Part shown: piece by piece, positions 9,113 to 43,486 of the stretch
Numbering within the stretch: position 1 is the stretch's first letter
How the letters are laid out: every line of letters starts with the position of its first letter
Assembly (NCBI RefSeq): GCF_900176005.1
Contig: NZ_LT838272.1
Coordinates: 2,313,587-2,377,586 of the forward strand
Origin: Thermanaeromonas toyohensis ToBE
GTDB lineage: Bacteria; Bacillota; DSM-521; Neomoorellales; Neomoorellaceae
Direction: 5' to 3'
DNA length: 64,000 nucleotides
Notes under the pieces: model-generated
Told to the model about the DNA's origin: nothing
Seen by the model: only the letters and a program-made list of their open reading frames with translations
The model's database searches: none
Program-made: the position numbers and the translations under genes

Positions 9113-10630
9113 TTATTGAGCCCCCTCTCTTACTTCTGTTGTTTGCGTTTCCGTAGCTTCACCGTTCATGCTCTGCAAAACCCGCACTTCAAAACGGCTC
9201 AAGAGTTTATGTAGATCAAGTACTAAAGCTACCGCTCCTTCTTGTCCCAGCTTGGCTATGCCGACCAGATACTCATGGTCCAGTCCCACTGAAGTTAAGG
9301 CGCCAGTAGACTCAATGTCGGCAAGCTGTATTCTCTTTACTTCTTTGACTGCATCAACAATAAAGCCGGTTAGGCTGTTTCCGATGTCTACCACAATAAT
9401 CCTGTTCTGGTCTCCCCTGGCAAAACTACCCATTTCCAAGCGCTTGCGAAGGTCTATCACCGGAATAATCTTGCCCCTAATGTTTATTACCCCTTCTACA
9501 AAGGAAGGAGCCTGGGGTACGCGCGTTATTTCCGGCACATTAAGAATCTCGCGCACAGAGGTTATCTCGGTGATAAAGTCCTGCTCGCCAAGCCTAAAGA
9601 GGATATACTGACCCTCACTGTTTTTGTCTGCCAAGGTTTCTTCCCTGACCTCACGATCCGCGTGGCCTATCCCGGACTTCATTACTTCCAGTCCCATGAG
9701 GCAAGTAGGGTCCAGAATGTAGGTAAGGCGTTTTTTCTTACCTGTGTCTATTTTACAGATCCCCTTAACCTTTAGCCTTGCATCAACTTGAAGGTACTCC
9801 GGCATCTCTTCAATGGTATTTGCGTCAATACTTAGCACCTCAGAGACACTGTCTACCACAATCCCCAGAAGCCCCCGTTCACCATGTAAGACAATAACCC
9901 TGCTCCTGCTGCGGTCGGCTTCTTCCTCCTTTAACCCCATAAGTCTTGCCAAGTTTATCACCGGAAGCAATTGGTCCCTCAACACCATGATCCCCTCGGC
10001 GTATTGAGGGAAGGTAGGGACGCTGCTTAACACTTCAGGGTAGGCCACTATTTCCTGGACATAGGCAATGTCCAGGCCGTATTCTTCCTCCCCAACGCCA
10101 AAGGTAACAAACTGCCGCTCTACTGCGCCAGTTGCATGTTCGGACCGCTCTCCGTATTTTTTGTCCCCGTATTCTTGCAACCTGATTTCCTCTTTTCCTA
10201 CATGGAAACTTAGGCCCTGGCCGAGAAGTTTGTGGGGGTCAAGGAGTATAATAACGCCGTTAGAAGAGCGCAGGAGCCCGGAGAAATATACTTGATTGGG
10301 GAGGTCCTGGGGGAGGGCTTCGATCTCCTCAGTGTCTACAGTAACTACCCCTGTTACCGCGTCAACCACATAACCAACCCGATAGTCACCCAGGGTTATT
10401 ATTAAGACCCTGGTGTCTTCGTCATGTTCTTTATCAGGCAGGCCGAACTTCTTCCTACCGCTGACTACTGAGATAATAAGCCCGCGGAGATTGGCCAGAC
10501 CCTCAACGTAATGGGGGGCCTGTGGAACCCTGGTTATGTGCGGAAGTCGTATGGTTTCCTGCACCGCTTGTACAGGTACCCCGTATTGTTCCCCAGCGAG
10601 GCGAAACAGTACATACTGGGCTGAAGGCAT
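9113..10630 (-). CDS. Triple-domain CheW scaffold protein
   Basis: A 505-residue protein made of three CheW domains in a row: about 1-145 (YVLFRLAGEQYGVPVQAVQE), 168-315 (FVTFGVGEEEYGLDIAYVQE) and 340-480 (YILFRLGEQDFITEITSVRE), each with a following GLANLRG-, GIMVLRD- or GVINIRG-type motif. Normal CheW is about 150 residues and joins receptors to CheA; a triple form could cross-link several receptors or kinases in one array. The linkers are charged. It sits directly between mcp and cheB. Confidence 0.92.
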   Translation of the reverse strand: MPSAQYVLFRLAGEQYGVPVQAVQETIRLPHITRVPQAPHYVEGLANLRGLIISVVSGRKKFGLPDKEHDEDTRVLIITLGDYRVGYVVDAVTGVVTVDTEEIEALPQDLPNQVYFSGLLRSSNGVIILLDPHKLLGQGLSFHVGKEEIRLQEYGDKKYGERSEHATGAVERQFVTFGVGEEEYGLDIAYVQEIVAYPEVLSSVPTFPQYAEGIMVLRDQLLPVINLARLMGLKEEEADRSRSRVIVLHGERGLLGIVVDSVSEVLSIDANTIEEMPEYLQVDARLKVKGICKIDTGKKKRLTYILDPTCLMGLEVMKSGIGHADREVREETLADKNSEGQYILFRLGEQDFITEITSVREILNVPEITRVPQAPSFVEGVINIRGKIIPVIDLRKRLEMGSFARGDQNRIIVVDIGNSLTGFIVDAVKEVKRIQLADIESTGALTSVGLDHEYLVGIAKLGQEGAVALVLDLHKLLSRFEVRVLQSMNGEATETQTTEVREGAQ

Positions 10631-10660: not shown

Positions 10661-12586
10661 TTACAAGTTCTGAAGCTCGTTGGCCATGGCGGCAATCTCC
10701 TCAATTGCCCGCGTAAGTTCTTCCATGCCCTGGGCCTGCTGGCGAGCAGCACTGGCCGCCTGTTCGCAGGCGGAAGCAGCTTCCTGGGCGGCGCCAGCAA
10801 TATTCTCTACCGCCTTCTTGGCCTCCTCGGCTGCTTTTGCAGCCTGTGCGGCATTATCGTCAATCTCCTTGGCACCCTGGACTATTGTCGCTATGTCTTG
10901 AGCCATTTTCTCAAGTTGCCCGACAACGGTCTTCGCATCTTCTACTTCGCGCTCGGCTTCGGATACTACAGTTTCTACTTCCCTCATGACGAGGGCGATA
11001 CGGTCCTGGATGGAGCGTACCAGGTCTTTTATCTGGTCCGCATTGCGTGCGCTCTCCTGCGCTAAATTACGAATATCCGAGGCTACCACTGCAAAGCCTT
11101 TCCCGAATTCCCCGGAACGAGCTGCTTCCACAGCGCCGGTTACTGCCAGCATGTTTGTCTGAATACCAACAGTGACTATGCTGTCCACTATCTTGTCTAT
11201 TTTCCTGGCTTCCTGTTCCAGGTCCCTCATAGCGGCTGCATTTTCCTGAGCTGTCTTCAAGGCTTGGTTTATACCATATATCAGACTCTCTACAAGTTCG
11301 CGGTTTTGCTTTAACAGTTCTTGCATAGCTTCTACCTGGCTAAGGCTTTTAACGGCAGCCTGTCTTATCCCTTCCATCTGCCGCGAAACCTGTATGGCCA
11401 CTGCGAGCGATTTCTCGGCAGCCTGTGACTGTATTTGGGCCCCCTTGCTTATCTGCTCAATGGCGGTCATAATCTGTCTAGCTGCTGTATTAGCTTCTTC
11501 CAGTGCAGCAGAGATCTCCTCAGCGGACGCCGCTACGCTTTCCGAAGCTTTAGAGGCGTCCTGAGCGCTTTTGACTGCATCCGCCTGGGCTAAAAGGTCA
11601 TTGACTGCGGCACCGATATCGCCCAGAGCCTTAACCTGTTGTTCTATGGAAGTGAGGGCTTCGGCTACTGCACTGCTCTGTTCTTCGGCCGCTTGGGCTA
11701 TTTGGGAGGCTCCATTTTGAAACTCCTGGGTGGCCCGGGTTACTTCTTGGGAAAGGGTTAATACTGTCTCCGAACCTTCACGCACAGTAACCATATCCTG
11801 TGCTATCTTATCTAGCCCTGCCGATACCTCACGACCTTTATCGGCCTCTCCCCTAGCTACTTCTGCCGCCTTATTTATTGCGGCGGCTATCTCTTTTACC
11901 CGCGACTGGATGCCACTCACTACCCCGCGAATGTCCTCCGCGGCTTTCTCAGAGGTTTCGGCCAGAGTGCGTACTTCATCCGCTACTACTGCAAATCCCT
12001 TGCCGTAGTCGCCGGCCCGGGCAGCTTCAATGGCGGCATTCAGGGCCAGAAGGTTAGTCTGGTCTGCTATCCTAACTACCGTACGGACAATGCTTCCAAT
12101 TTCCTCAGCTTGTTTCTCCAACTCCACCACTGACCGGGCGGACTCTTCATTCCGTGCTGCCGCGGCTATAACTCCGTCCACTAATTTTTGTATGCTTTGC
12201 GAAGTCTCGCCAGACAGTGCCTGCAAAGCAATTACTTTGTTCAATGATTCTTGAGCCCGGGTTACGCTTACCTGTGCATTCCGGTTGATTTGCTCGATAC
12301 CCGTCAGGGACTCCTGGGTGGCACTAGAAGCTTCTTCCGCGCCTTTACCTATCTGTTCCATAGCAGCTTGAAGCTCGTTAATTGCTGAAGAAGCCTCCTC
12401 TACTCCTGCCGAGAGCTGCTCTGTGGCGCTTGCGATCCTTTCGGCCAGCTGCTGTCTCTTGGCAATGAGCCTTGCCTGGCGCCGTTGGGCCTCCAGCTTT
12501 TTGGCTGTCTCATTGAGTCGCTTGTTTTCCGCCTCTTTCGCGCTGGCCTCCTGTGAAACTTCCGGCAACGCAAGTTTTTTCTCCAT
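10661..12586 (-). CDS. Soluble chemoreceptor with two tandem signalling tips
   Basis: A 641-residue, Ala/Glu/Gln-rich, almost wholly coiled-coil protein without membrane segments or a recognisable sensor domain. It has two chemoreceptor hairpin tips: near 175-210 ([20 protein letters not shown]) and near 475-510 ([20 protein letters not shown]), 300 residues apart. Ordinary receptors have one. The first tip is canonical; the second departs at LNAAIE (VTGAVE). This suggests a cytoplasmic receptor that can nucleate two CheA/CheW contacts, matching the triple-CheW partner encoded next. GGGGGA precedes the ATG. It is the first clear gene after the riboswitch. Confidence 0.92.
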
Positions 12587-13209: not shown

Positions 13210-13306
13210 CCCTCACGGCAGCCTGGCAGCCATAATCCTTTACCTGGATCTTAGGCCCATGGCTTTGCGCCCCGCCCTTTCGAGCTGTTTGCCTTTATCG
13301 TGAAGG
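13210..13306 (-). promoter_or_regulatory. Cyclic-di-GMP-I (GEMM-I) riboswitch aptamer
   Basis: The minus strand shows the GEMM-I consensus in order: GGCAAAC (13293-13287), a GAAA tetraloop, GGGGCGCAAAGCC, GGGCCTAA, then ATGGCTGCC and GGCTGCCG. The closing stem P1 is CCTTCACG (13306-13299) with CGTGAGGG (13217-13210), eight pairs with one G-U. A terminator follows. The aptamer binds the second messenger cyclic di-GMP. The next well-supported gene downstream is mcp of the chemosensory operon, about 590 nt away. I found no convincing promoter upstream. Confidence 0.9.
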
Positions 13307-32741: not shown

Positions 32742-33503
32742 TTAGTTTATTTTAGCTCCGATGCGGAGTTTATCGGCTACCATGGCTATAAACTCTGAAT
32801 TAGTAGGTTTCCCTCTTTCCATGTTGATGGTGTATCCGAAAAACTTGGTCATCATCTCCACATTACCCCGGTCCCAGGCGAGCTCAATAGCATGTCGGAT
32901 AGCCCTTTCCACCCGGCTAGGGGTGGTCATATATTTACGCGCTATCATGGGATAAAGCTCCTTAGTTACTGCACCTAATAGGTTCATATCCTCTATGACT
33001 AGGAGGATGGCCTCCCGGAGATACTGATATCCCTTGATATGGGCCGGAATACCCATTTGATGGAGAATCTTAGTAACTTCCACGTCCATATTACGATTGC
33101 GCACCACCGGAGAGGAGGTGGAAAAGGACTGGCCGTTAGCTAGCTGACGCAAGCGATTACCTAAAACCTCCAAATCAAAGGGTTTGAGTATGTAATAATC
33201 AGCACCCAACTCTAAAGTCCGTATAGTCATGGCTTCTTGCCCCAAAGTAGTAAGAACTACAATCTTGGGACGGTGTTCCCATTCAGCTAAACGTTCAAGC
33301 ACCCCAATGCCGTCGAGATGGGGCATAATAATATCCAACACTACGATGTCCGGCTCGTGTTCCCGGATAAGCTGCAGTGTCTCATGTCCATTGTGGGCTA
33401 TGCCCGTCAAAATCAAATCCGGCTGTTCATTAAAAAATTCCTCCAGTACCTCACAAAATTCACGATTATCGTCTGCAATTAAAACTTTTATAGGCTGGCC
33501 CAT
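32742..33503 (-). CDS. spo0A: Spo0A master regulator of sporulation (internal start)
   Basis: From the ATG at 33503 the frame encodes a normal-sized 253-residue Spo0A. Receiver: [18 protein letters not shown], phosphoacceptor Asp in [13 protein letters not shown], Lys in YILKPFDL. Effector domain: [40 protein letters not shown] and [20 protein letters not shown], the Spo0A recognition helices. Phosphorylated Spo0A binds TGTCGAA boxes and starts sporulation. A G-rich site (GGCGGGGTG) precedes the ATG, and a sigma-H-like promoter lies 46-75 bp upstream. Expression as the tail of SpoIVB instead is possible but less likely. Confidence 0.9.
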
Positions 33504-34970
33504 TAAATGCACCCCGCCTTCTAGCATTTTCCTGTTAACCGGGCAATAGATTTCGACGTGAGATAGGGATAATCCTTCCAATCGCAATAAAACCAAAAAC
33601 TTTTGCTTCTCCGGCAAAAAACGCGTAAAAGTATAAGCCAGGCTACCAGGAAGCTTTACCAAAAATATCCTGATAGCCTGGCGAGAAGAAATTTCTTCCC
33701 AAAGCCCAGCTTCTTTAACCATCCATTCGGCCAGTACTCCATAGCCTCTAGCTGGATCATTTACAAAAACATGGGTTATAGCTCCTACCAACCGGCCATC
33801 TTGGATAATGGGGCTCCCGCTCATTCCCTGGATGATCCCGCCTGTCAAGGTTAATAACCGGGGATCTGTTATGCGAATAATTAAGCCTTTACCATGGGGG
33901 TATTGCTGGGGTAACACCTTCTCAATATAAGCCTTAAACCTTTCTACTTGTTCTCCCGAGATTACAGTTAATATTTCTGCTTCTCCAGGATGAACCTGCG
34001 AAACTAGGGCTACAGGGATGGGCTCAGGATATGGCCCCGGAGCAGGCCTTCCCTCTAATATACCAAAGATACCGAATTCAGTATTTTTTTGTATTATACC
34101 GCTAAATTCTCCCTTGTCCAGAAATACCCCCACCTTTTCCCCTGGGTACCCCCGGCGACCTTGGTGAATACCCTGGACCAAAGCAGCCACTATACGCCCT
34201 CCAGTGATACTTATCTCCCTCTGGCTTCCTTCCGGAACCACTTTATGACCTAGGGCCCCGTAGATGCCCCGTACCGGATCGTAAAAGGTTAAAGTACCTA
34301 CCCCTGCTGTGCTATCCCGGACATAAAGCCCAAGGCGATAACGTCTCGTCTTGGGGCAGTATTCAGGTTTTACTTTAGCCGTAAAGGTATGCTGTCCCCG
34401 GCGTACTAAGAGTTCAGCTTCACGGCCGGCTCTCCCAGCAGCATCTATTAACTGAGCTAAAGCTTCTTCGCTAGTGACTTCTTGCCCATCCACAGCTAAA
34501 ATGGTATCGCCCACCGCCAAGCCGGCTAGTCGTCCCGGGTATTTTGTCTTTCCAGGAGCCGTTTCCACCCCAGCTTCTCCCACTACCACTACACCTTGGG
34601 TACGCAGAAGGATACCGATAGAGTGACCCCCAGGGATTACAGATACTGGCTTTATTACTTGAACTTTAATGTTTTTCAAAGGAATAAGACCAAAAAGCTT
34701 TAATTCTAGGTGTAAATCTCCAGCAGCCCAAGTCTTAATTTTTCCGTTTGCGCAAAAGATGCGGTCAACATCTTGGCCGTCATATAGGAACCAGCTTAAG
34801 CCTTTCTCTAAGAAAGAAGGTAATTCCCAATTAAGGTTAATATTTTCTCCTAATGCAACCTGTTGTTCTTCCGGTAGAGCGAAAAAACCACGCACCGGTG
34901 GGGAAAGATATCCTAAGAATAGAATAAAGGCTAATATTACACCTAAAAGTTGGCGTTTTAGGTTTTTCAA
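32742..34970 (-). CDS. spoIVB: SpoIVB-Spo0A uninterrupted reading frame
   Basis: A single 742-codon frame. Residues 1-30 are a signal/anchor helix, about 105-200 a PDZ domain ([20 protein letters not shown]), and about 205-428 the SpoIVB serine protease with catalytic Ser in [20 protein letters not shown] and His in [10 protein letters not shown]. SpoIVB normally ends near there (about 426 residues), and spo0A is a separate gene. Here no stop occurs: about 60 unusual residues lead into a complete Spo0A from residue 490. A terminator-like hairpin, a sigma-H-like promoter and a ribosome site lie in the join, so two separate products are likely despite the open frame. Confidence 0.85.
33549..33578 (-). 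promoter_or_regulatory. Sigma-H-like promoter of spo0A, inside the fused frame
   Basis: GAAGGATTA (33578-33570), 12 bp, then GTCGAAATC (33557-33549), matching RNAGGAWWW-N12-RNNGAAWWW. The start would be near 33541, giving a leader of about 38 nt to the spo0A ATG. CGTCGAA in the -10 is one base from a Spo0A box, allowing autocontrol. In Bacillus the sporulation promoter of spo0A is also sigma-H dependent. Confidence 0.68.
33638..33681 (-). terminator. Hairpin at the spoIVB end, inside the fused frame
   Basis: CCAGGCTATCAGGA (33681-33668) and TCCTGGTAGCCTGG (33651-33638) form a 14-pair stem with one G-U and a 16-nt loop on the minus strand. T-rich but interrupted sequence follows (CTTATACTTTT, later TTTTTT). 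It begins just past the expected end of SpoIVB, where a terminator would stand if spoIVB had its stop codon. Confidence 0.55.
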
Positions 34971-39019: not shown

Positions 39020-40894
39020 TTAATTCAAAAATAAAGTCTCCACAGCTTGAGCAATGGCCGGGGCGGTAAGGCCTAGTTTCTCCCTCAACATATCAGGTTT
39101 CCCGTGCTCCACAAAAATATCCCTGCTGATACCTAAGGTTTTAACTTTTACACCCGTACATCCAGCCTCAGCCAAGGCCTCCAAAACTGCGCTTCCAAAC
39201 CCTCCAGCCACCACATGTTCCTCTAAAGTCACAAGGTGTCCCGTTTTTTGGGCCCATTCCACGATCAGGTCTTTATCTAAAGGTTTAATGAAACGAGCAT
39301 TGATAACAGCTACTTCGAGCCCCTGGGTGGCCAGCCTTTCAGCCGCTTCCAAGGCCGCATACACTAAGGGGCCAATGGCTACAATGACCGCTTGCCGACC
39401 ATCCCGCAAAATTTCTCCTTTGCCTACAGGTAATGGACGTGCTGGATCTTCCAGGGGCACTCCCACCCCCGGACCTCGCGGATAACGCAAGGCCACAGGT
39501 CCCTCAATTTGAAGAGCGGTTACCAACATATCTTTAAGCTCTTGCTCATCCTTAGGCGCCATAAGGACCATCCCCGGAATACACCGCAAAAGGGCTATAT
39601 CAAATATGCCCTGGTGCGTCTCCCCATCTTCTCCTACCAGTCCTGCCCGGTCCAGCACTAGGGTAACCGGAAGATGCATCAGGGCCACATCATGGATCAC
39701 TTGGTCCACGGCTCGCTGGAGGAAAGTTGAGTAAATCGCTACCACAGGACGGAAACCCATGGTGGCCAGGCCGGCTGCCAGGGTCACCGCATGCTGCTCT
39801 GCAATACCTACATCGAAAAAGCGTGCTGGGAACCGCCGGGCAAAGGGCATGAGGCCTGTCCCTTCCGGCATAGCCGCTGTAATAGCCACTATCCGTTCAT
39901 CTTTCTCTGCTTGGCGGACAAGTTCGGCACCGAACACAGAAGTAAAGGTAGCCGGTCCAGAAGAAGGTAACACCTTCCCAGTATGGGGATCAAAAGGGCC
40001 TACTCCATGGAATACCTCCGGCCGGGCTTCCGCTGGAGGATAACCTTTACCCTTTTGGGTTACGACATGCACTAGGACCGGCCCCGGGGTCCGGCGAGCC
40101 TGCTTAAGCACTTCTTTAAGCTGGGATAGATTGTGACCATCGATGGGTCCTAAATAGGTAAACCCTAGCTCCTCAAAAAGCATACCTGGGATAACTAAAT
40201 ATTTAAGGCTATCCTTTAAACGCTCTATCAATTTTAAAAAATGCGGTCCTACCCGGGGCAGGCGTCTCAAGATAAACTCTAGTTCCTCTTTACTCCGGAA
40301 ATAGCGAGGATCTGTGCGCAACCGGGAAAGATAAGCAGCAAGCCCCCCTACCGGACCCGAAATTGACATTTCGTTATCGTTTAATACCACAATCAAATGG
40401 GTTTTGAGGTGACCAGCATGGTTCAAAGCCTCAAAGGCCATACCGCCAGTCAAGGCTCCATCGCCAATAACCGCCACGACCTCAAAATCTTCTCCTCTTA
40501 AATCCCGGGCCAGAGCTATCCCTAGGGCAGCAGATATGGAGGTGCTGCTATGCCCAGTATTAAAAACATCATGGGGGCTCTCTGACCTTTTAGGAAAACC
40601 GCTTAAGCCCCCGAACTGGCGCAAAGTAGCAAATCGATCCCTTCGCCCGGTAAGGATCTTATGGACATAACATTGATGCCCTACGTCCCAAATTATTTTA
40701 TCCCTAGGTGAGTGGAATACAGTGTGTAAGGCCAGGGTAAGTTCCACCACCCCCAGATTAGGGGCCAGATGGCCACCTGTTCTAGCCACCACGGATATTA
40801 ATTCTTCCCGTATTTCTTGGGCCAAGATTTCTAACTGCTTAAGGCTTAAGGATTTTAGATCTTCCGGCGAGTTGATCTTGTTTAGGAGCCTCAT
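39020..40894 (-). CDS. dxs: 1-deoxy-D-xylulose-5-phosphate synthase
   Basis: A 624-residue thiamine-diphosphate enzyme with [20 protein letters not shown] (cofactor site), the transketolase domain [20 protein letters not shown] and the C-terminal domain. It joins pyruvate and glyceraldehyde 3-phosphate to make DXP, the first step of the MEP isoprenoid path. Its ATG overlaps the oapA stop by 4 bp. ispA lies just beyond OLE RNA, so this is an isoprenoid gene cluster. Confidence 0.97.
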
Positions 40895-41487
40895 GAACTC
40901 CTACCTTTCCGTCTTGTATTGTTTATAGGTATTAGAGATCTCCCTGTTAACCTCTCTAGAAAGTATAGAATACGGCCTACCCAGAAAACTATTTCATTAG
41001 CCTCCCGCAAGGCAAAGCTTTTACCTAAAGCCTTGCCCCCCACGGTTAAGCCAGAAATAGTCGCCGTCATGGCCGTACTTATCCATATATCCTGGGCAGA
41101 TCCTCCTACCAAGCGGAAAAGGATGCTCGCTCCTATAGCTCCGCTTAAGGTAGCGCATACATCGCCCACTACGTCATTGGCGAAGCTAGCTACCCGATCG
41201 GCGTTACGAAGGAGCCATAAAGCTTCTCTCGCACCCTCTACCTTTCTAGCAGCGCGAGCATGCAAAGGTGGTTCTAGGGCTGCCGCTACCGCTATACCTA
41301 GAATATCAAAGGCTATACCTATAAGAATAATTACTACTAGTAGAATAAAAGAGACCAGGAAGGAAGCTAAACGTCCAATGAAAGTCTGGGATAAGTAACC
41401 TAAGCTTAAGGCCAAAAAAAAAGTACCAATACCTGTAGTTAGTGCATTTCGCCACGGTTTTCGGTTTCGGTTTTTAGTACTACCCAA
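40891..41487 (-). CDS. oapA: OLE-associated membrane protein OapA
   Basis: A 198-residue membrane protein with about four membrane segments ([40 protein letters not shown]) and a DUF21-like stretch [20 protein letters not shown]. OapA binds OLE RNA at the membrane and is encoded directly after it; here it follows a structured non-coding segment and precedes dxs, the described order. The tails are strongly basic ([19 protein letters not shown]), fitting RNA contact. TTG start with AAGGGGAG. Identified by context and character rather than by alignment. Confidence 0.82.
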
Positions 41488-41519: not shown

Positions 41520-42126
41520 TTCTCCCTTACCGCTACAGTGGGTGGCGACCTGCCAGGTAAACGTTGTGGCTTAGGTCCAGCAGGTTTTCCCGGCAACCTA
41601 CCGCCCGTCGCCGCAAGCGGCGGTTCCCCTTTAAAGGTTGCCCTGTAACGTCGCCGTATACAGAGCTGGATCACCACTTAGCACACACTTTAATCCCTGG
41701 CAGGCCTTACCAGCAAAGCGGTAAACAGCCTAGGAGTTTTCCTCCACAGCACCCACCCTTCCCTAGCCTCTTTTGCAGTTGTGGTTTCAACAGCCAGTTT
41801 CCACCACAACCACTCAAGGCAGGCTACGCTGCAGCCAGCACCCTTTGTACCGACTGCAGGTTTATACCCCAAGCCATAGTACTCATCCCTAGTGTAGACT
41901 TTCCCACGCACTTGGGTCTCCGCGGAAGGAGGGTCAACGCCTACATGCCTTTGTAGATCGCCCCCCTTCCTTAACTCCCAGCACCAGCCCCCGACTGGGC
42001 GTCGGCAGCCAGCACCAGGAACTTCATCGCTGTGCCCTTGACGGATTTTTAGGCCCGTCTTCAGGAAGGGCAGCACTGACTAGGATACTGCGCCACCCAC
42101 TAAACTGGTAGGCCTAAGCCCTGGTA
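41520..42126 (-). ncRNA. ole: OLE RNA (ornate large extremophilic RNA)
   Basis: This GC-rich segment between ispA and oapA has no good gene but many RNA stems. GTGGGTGGCG (42100-42091) pairs exactly with CGCCACCCAC (41547-41538), closing a 563-nt domain. Inside are GTTGTGG/CCACAAC (41820-41814 with 41784-41778) and a CGCCG-CGGCG tetraloop hairpin (41622-41609). From the predicted start to the 3' side of the closing stem is about 600 nt, the known size of OLE RNA, which forms a membrane ribonucleoprotein with OapA and serves stress and alcohol tolerance. The 3' end is not fixed. Confidence 0.85.
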
Positions 42127-42132
42127 GCATGT

Positions 42133-42162
42133 ATTATAAGGTATAAAAGAACCCCCCAGCAA
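42133..42162 (-). promoter_or_regulatory. Sigma-A promoter of OLE RNA
   Basis: TTGCTG (42162-42157), 18 bp, then a perfect TATAAT (42138-42133), placing the start near 42126, just before the closing stem. From 42163 to 42348 only a small GCTTGC/GCAAGC hairpin is seen, no gene. Confidence 0.75.
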
Positions 42163-42348
42163 GGTGAATGAATAAGAACTATCGCTAGCCACAGCTCGCC
42201 ATGAGGGTTAGAGGAAAAGAAATCTTATAAGACTTTATGTACTTTACTATAGCTTGCTTTTGCAAGCCCTTACTTTACTTTAGACCCCATCACACCTTAA
42301 AAGCCATCTAAGTGCAGACAAAGTAAACCTCGGCTGCGGAAGGTCCCC

Positions 42349-43236
42349 CTAACCCTTACGCTCCACTATATAACGGGCTATGGCCTTTAAGGGCCATGCA
42401 GCTTCCCCTAGCTCTGCTGCTATAATGGCCGCCCGGGTGGCGAGTTCCTGGGCTCTTTGCCTCGATTCTTCTATACCGAAGCAGGCTGGATAAGTGAGCT
42501 TTTGTTTTTTGCTGTCGCTCCCCGCTACCTTCCCGGTATAATAGAATTCCCCTTCTATATCTAGCAAATCATCTACAATTTGAAAAGCAAGCCCGATATC
42601 TTCACCGTAACGGGTTAACTTATCCAGCTGCTCCGTGGTCGCTCCCCCTAGGAGGCCGCCGATGCGGACGCAAGCCCGGATAAGGCTACCCGTCTTATGG
42701 CGGTGAATATATTCCACAAGCTGAGCTTCTGGTGGCTGGCCTTCGGAGAGAAGATCCACTACCTGACCCCCGACTAGTCCCTGGCTACCTGCAGCTTGAG
42801 CTAGCTCACGGACAGCAGCCAGGGTGGCTTCTGGGCTGCTCCCAACTTCCACCTGAGCTGCCAGGACACCGAAAGCCGCGGTAAGCAAGGCATCCCCGGC
42901 CAGGATAGCTATGGCTTCCCCATAAACTTTATGACAAGTCAAGCGCCCCCGCCGGTAATCATCATTATCCATGGCAGGGAGGTCATCATGGATAAGGGAA
43001 TAAGTATGAAGGAGCTCTACTGCGCAAGCCGCAGGCAAAAGCCTTTGGGGAGGGCATCCTACTGCTTCCCCTGCCGCTAAAACCAATATAGGGCGGAGCC
43101 TTTTCCCCCCGGCAAAAAGGCTATAGCGCATGGCTTCATGTATGAGGGGGGGGAAAGATCTGGCTGGGGGAAGAACGTGCTCTAGCGCCTCTTCCACGAG
43201 CTTGCGACGGTTAGCAAGATAATCTGCCAAGTCCAT
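42349..43236 (-). CDS. ispA: Farnesyl/geranylgeranyl diphosphate synthase
   Basis: A 295-residue trans-prenyl chain synthase with both Asp-rich motifs: LIHDDLPAMDNDD and FQIVDDLLDIEGE, and GGKRLRP for substrate binding. It condenses isopentenyl diphosphate units to farnesyl diphosphate. I chose the ATG at 43236, behind GGAGGTATAGGGCC and 5 bp after the xseB stop; an upstream start at 43284 would overlap xseB and add an unlikely Trp/Arg-rich tail. Confidence 0.95.
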   Translation of the reverse strand: MDLADYLANRRKLVEEALEHVLPPARSFPPLIHEAMRYSLFAGGKRLRPILVLAAGEAVGCPPQRLLPAACAVELLHTYSLIHDDLPAMDNDDYRRGRLTCHKVYGEAIAILAGDALLTAAFGVLAAQVEVGSSPEATLAAVRELAQAAGSQGLVGGQVVDLLSEGQPPEAQLVEYIHRHKTGSLIRACVRIGGLLGGATTEQLDKLTRYGEDIGLAFQIVDDLLDIEGEFYYTGKVAGSDSKKQKLTYPACFGIEESRQRAQELATRAAIIAAELGEAAWPLKAIARYIVERKG

Positions 43237-43240
43237 GGCC

Positions 43241-43486
43241 CTATACCTCCGGCAGTTCCAATTCCCGGATAACCAGTTCTCCATCCTCCTGGGCCATCAA
43301 GATCTGGAGCTTATGTTCAAACTTATTAAGCTGCTCCCGGCAAAAACGAACTAGCCGTATACCCTCCTGGTAATAGTCCAGGGCCTCTTCTAATTTAAGA
43401 TTTCCACCCTCCAGGGCTTGGACAACAGCCTCTAACTTACCTAAGGCCTCTTCAAAGGTTAATTTCCTTTCTCTTTCTCCTGCCAA
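43241..43486 (-). CDS. xseB: Exodeoxyribonuclease VII small subunit
   Basis: An 81-residue helical protein with [40 protein letters not shown] and C-x-x-x-L, as in XseB. It binds XseA to make exonuclease VII, which degrades single-stranded DNA from both ends. It overlaps the end of xseA by 28 bp. Confidence 0.94.
   Translation of the reverse strand: MAGERERKLTFEEALGKLEAVVQALEGGNLKLEEALDYYQEGIRLVRFCREQLNKFEHKLQILMAQEDGELVIRELELPEV

Follow-up and report, generated by a model that had tools for sequence, protein, structure and literature searches.

A full-length OLE RNA match with a shortened P9 arm between ispA and oapA in Thermanaeromonas toyohensis

The analysed 64,000-nucleotide stretch of the Thermanaeromonas toyohensis ToBE genome (hereafter the window, the numbering of which is used throughout) carries, on the minus strand at positions 41526-42112, what is almost certainly a functional full-length OLE RNA gene, as judged from its sequence features. 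OLE is a well-studied large structured bacterial RNA that resides in a membrane complex, and the family comprises thousands of members. The locus is a standard OLE gene in a standard gene cluster, of a kind that is already known; it is a further clear member of the family, and the useful by-products of the analysis are comparative. The sequence evidence covers the family membership, the terminal stem P1, the conserved promoter, the tandem oapA gene and the genes for OapB, OapC and bS21. Function beyond family membership is carried over by analogy from Halalkalibacterium halodurans.

Results

The cmscan analysis of the window assigned positions 41526-42112 (minus strand) to the Rfam family RF01071 with a score of 497.2 bits (E = 7.3e-143; the gathering cut-off is 50 bits), and the match spanned model positions 1-616 without truncation. 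A sequence-only reading of this DNA had proposed OLE RNA here and named the Rfam model search as its check; the hit was obtained on the expected minus strand and at full length, and the identification is further upheld by synteny, the DxxxD motif of OapA, and the OapB, OapC and bS21 genes located elsewhere in the genome. The whole genome contains a single OLE copy. The core of the RNA, closed by stem P1, occupies positions 41538-42100 (minus strand). The fold of these 563 nt on the minus strand was well below that of shuffled sequences (z -7.9), with the terminal stem included in the minimum free energy structure, and the earlier description of about 560 nt of structured DNA was thus borne out. 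The outer boundary given there, 41520, holds only approximately, as it lies 18 nt past the 3' arm of P1 (41538) and no terminator marks the 3' end. OLE was found in 19 of the 22 genomes of the order and in 284 of 398 sampled genomes of the phylum; the closest named relative by OapA is a Thermanaeromonas MAG (83% identity).

The gene order around the RNA is ispA - ole - oapA - dxs, within an isoprenoid/DNA-repair cluster. The upstream neighbour ispA (42349-43284, minus strand) encodes farnesyl diphosphate synthase (NCBIfam NF045485). Downstream, oapA (40891-41487, minus strand) encodes a membrane protein of 198 amino acids with a TTG start and the DxxxD motif at residues 105 and 109 (CNNM, 30.6 bits), and is followed by dxs (39020-40894, minus strand; NCBIfam TIGR00204). 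The proposed placement between ispA and oapA was therefore confirmed by family matches for both neighbours. According to the translations, xseB, xseA and folD lie further upstream of ispA, while a tlyA-type methyltransferase gene, nadK, argR and recN follow dxs. A phage origin of the region was considered and rejected, since the phage collection gave no match.

The protein partners described for OLE were sought in the window's own genome. The CNNM match of OapA is weak, which is general for OapA proteins. Of 54 aligned OapA frames, 53 retain its DxxxD motif (D105/D109 in the window), and the one without it is frame-shifted. The search of the 3.33-Mb genome gave no CNNM protein other than OapA, and none of the MpfA type. 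The gene for OapC is located between rpoC and rpsL as an intact 83-aa ORF with YbxF as its best match. OapB is encoded between map and infA; it was not detected by the Pfam KOW model and was found by its position and by phmmer, its best match among solved structures being OLE-associated protein B (E = 1.4e-5). A bS21 gene is also present. This partner set is in line with PMC11332333, in which OLE correlates with OapA, OapB and OapC and anticorrelates with MpfA.

The terminal stem is formed by the 5' arm GTGGGTGGCG (42100 to 42091) and the 3' arm CGCCACCCAC (41547 to 41538), both on the minus strand, which match in 10 of 10 pairs. A ten-pair match somewhere in about 860 nt is only mildly unlikely on its own, so a comparative pairing test was needed; moreover, the stem had to be tested independently because the RF01071 consensus structure line leaves both RNA ends unpaired and does not draw it. 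OLE loci were gathered from the genomes of the order, the phylum sample and the neighbours of OapA genes. In 85 loci (75 unique sequences) anchors outside the stem, not pairing, fixed the position of the arms: CAGTATNCTAGTC on the 5' side and TTTAYC plus 14 nt on the 3' side. In the register seen in the window, 91.1% of cells were paired, in comparison to 33.3-61.5% when the arms were slid by 1-4 nt. Positions 2-12 were paired in 57-100% of the 75 unique sequences. Positions 2, 3 and 6-12 exceeded all 500 shuffles, a control that is not strict for P1 as the sequences are related, although the slid registers retain this relatedness and concur. All four pair types (G-C, A-U, U-A and C-G) occurred at positions 8-11, and position 1 was mostly G-U and gave no signal. 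The perfect ten-pair stem noticed in the sequence-only reading is thus exact in the window and supported by covariation across the 85 loci. It is most likely the published P1, which the text of PMC12265935 lists in domain 2 of OLE. Unlike the RF01071 structure line, which lacks P1, the present OLE RNA contains the stem, and this covarying terminal stem could be added to the Rfam line.

The TATAAT promoter claimed from the sequence is present on the minus strand at 42133-42138. Among 18 OLE loci of the order, 16 have the same hexamer upstream of the RNA, as a rule behind a TTGC[C/T]G motif at a distance of 17-18 nt. In the window the -35-like element is TTGCTG (42157-42162, minus strand; spacer of 18 nt), and most relatives are alike in this respect. 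A consensus promoter scan did not report the OLE promoter, because TTGCTG matches the consensus at only three of six positions. No intrinsic terminator was found in the gap of about 50 nt between the RNA and oapA; co-transcription with oapA followed by trimming is therefore likely, by analogy with the H. halodurans OLE. About 200 nt between ispA and the OLE promoter (42139-42348, minus strand) are non-coding, and a small terminator-like hairpin lies in this interval on the plus strand (42252-42267).

The P9 arm (41767-41820, minus strand), delimited by the cmscan alignment and by anchors, is 43 nt below the model length in that alignment. From anchor to anchor it measures 54 nt, in comparison to 93-102 nt (usually about 97 nt) in most OLE RNAs, and it lacks the palindromic apical loop. 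In cryo-EM structures, the tip of P9 forms a symmetric kissing loop that serves as dimer bridge B3 (PMC12286853 and PMC12265935). We scored GGCC, GATC, AGCT or GCGC near the centre of the arm as the P9 palindrome. Outside the window's family it was present in 70 of 77 OLE RNAs, inside it in 2 of 16 (Fisher p = 8e-10, without correction for common ancestry; shuffled arms carried a palindrome in 25% of cases). Short P9 arms outside the family were limited to four loci (45-60 nt). Arms of 54 nt occurred in the window and in one other genus, which stand apart in the tree of the remaining RNA (several forks of which are poorly supported); their positions suggest that the two lineages shortened P9 separately. 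In several relatives within the window's family (among loci L002-L019), P9 is branched and its tip is not palindromic, a conserved CTTCGCCGAAG or TTTCGCCGAAA replacing the GGCC palindrome.

The loop sequences of the other two dimer bridges are unchanged in the window's OLE. The A-rich P4 loop CTAAAAATC (42044-42052, minus strand; bridge B1 in PMC12286853) is conserved in nearly all loci compared. Bridge B2 is made up of the P5 apical loop GCCCAG (41995-42000, minus strand) and the P6 apical loop AAAGGCATG (41944-41952, minus strand), as described in PMC12286853 and PMC12265935. Across the loci, GCCCAG in P5 was mostly accompanied by AATGGC or AAAGGC in P6, and a P5 loop GCCCCG by AAGGGCATG in P6 (L023, L033, L034, L049, L068, L075, L091 and L092); this co-change resembles covariation between the two sides of the intermolecular bridge B2. 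P6 also contains CCTCCTT (41926-41932, minus strand), a candidate for the anti-Shine-Dalgarno mimic bound by bS21 that has been described in the H. halodurans OLE (PMC12054373); pattern searches for the 3' end of the genome's own 16S rRNA, made with this mimic in view, gave no match.

Discussion

The window's OLE shares with the full-length class (PMC11332333) the whole model, the neighbours ispA, oapA, dxs and recN, the protein partners and its own promoter; it differs in the length of P9 (about 97 nt there versus 54 nt here) and in the absence of the palindromic apical loop. In variant 1 OLE of the TANB77 clade, P7, P8 and P9 are short and the OapB site is often lost, and this variant is commonest in reduced genomes mostly without OapB and OapC (PMC11332333). 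The shorter P9 is common to variant 1 and to the RNA studied here. However, the model alignment shows no loss in P12-P13, which holds the OapB site, the genome encodes both OapB and OapC, and at 3.3 Mb it is not reduced. With only P9 clearly short, the RNA was not placed in variant 1. The main text of the OLE literature consulted, to the extent available, makes no mention of an OLE RNA that has the full partner set and lacks the P9 loop.

Three other readings of the region were weighed against a functional OLE RNA. It is scarcely credible that the region is protein-coding and the RNA structure incidental. ORFs of 128, 65 and 130 aa do overlap the RNA, and the same-genus relative has uninterrupted 128- and 65-aa frames. 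None of the three has a Pfam or NCBIfam match, however; in other genera the 128- and 65-aa frames are broken in most cases, and stop codons disrupt the 130-aa frame already within the genus. The full-length OLE match and the covarying stem also argue against this reading. The ORFs were consequently rejected as genes, which bears out the description of the interval as gene-free. It also appears very unlikely that the structure serves only as an oapA mRNA leader (a cis-regulator or riboswitch-like element) from which no separate RNA is made. The short distance to oapA and the lack of a detectable intrinsic terminator would fit such a leader, but the H. halodurans OLE is a separate, abundant and presumably processed RNA of about 630 nt, which has its own promoter while sitting in a large operon, and which forms a complex with OapA, OapB and OapC (PMC9723947).

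The reduction of P9 to 54 nt and the missing palindromic loop could be taken as signs of a decaying or partly inactive copy. We consider this highly improbable: all the other conserved parts score as in the family at large (497 bits), neither P1 nor the promoter has been lost, the genes for OapA, OapB, OapC and bS21 are intact, and the relatives that share the P9 change still have OLE.

A functional OLE RNA remains the preferred reading, and its mode of action can be outlined by analogy with H. halodurans and clostridial OLE. The RNA would be transcribed from its own promoter as well as through read-through within the isoprenoid/DNA-repair operon, and would be trimmed near P1, ahead of oapA. 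It would dimerize via the P4 and P5/P6 loops and be kept at the membrane by a dimer of OapA; OapC would presumably bind at the kink turn next to P5, whereas OapB would occupy P12.2/P13 and bS21 would contact P6. The RNA would help the cell to withstand stresses, including divalent-metal imbalance. With no other CNNM protein found in the genome, the complex of OLE and OapA may substitute for the absent MpfA exporter.

The P9 arm is the point at which the window's RNA departs from the cryo-EM structures that underlie the dimer model, and this counts against the outlined explanation. The B1 (P4) and B2 (P5/P6) loops are the same as in the OLE dimers of Clostridium acetobutylicum (PMC12286853) and C. 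botulinum (covered in PMC12265935), but the B3 kissing loop of P9, as described in these sources, cannot form here. Because P9 is shortened, the dimer is expected to form without the P9 kissing-loop bridge. Whether the OLE RNAs of the window's bacterial family do dimerize without this bridge while keeping all partners and the other bridges, so that the P9 arch would be dispensable, is in our view an evenly balanced question. If true, the family would represent a natural deletion experiment on a proposed OLE dimer contact, and its full-partner RNAs without the P9 kissing loop would offer a direct test of the importance of that contact.

Two further features of the window were recorded away from the OLE locus. 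A c-di-GMP-I riboswitch (RF01051, 79.6 bits) is located at 13214-13303 on the minus strand. It lies upstream of a chemotaxis-receptor-like gene on the same strand (10661-12586), about 600 nt apart, and a CheW-like triple-domain gene (9113-10630) follows downstream, also on that strand. At 32742-34970 (minus strand), a single ORF of 742 aa appears to combine a PDZ peptidase of the SpoIVB type with a response regulator of the Spo0A type. As these two proteins usually come from separate adjoining genes, the ORF would represent a natural gene fusion, a frameshift or the loss of a stop codon.
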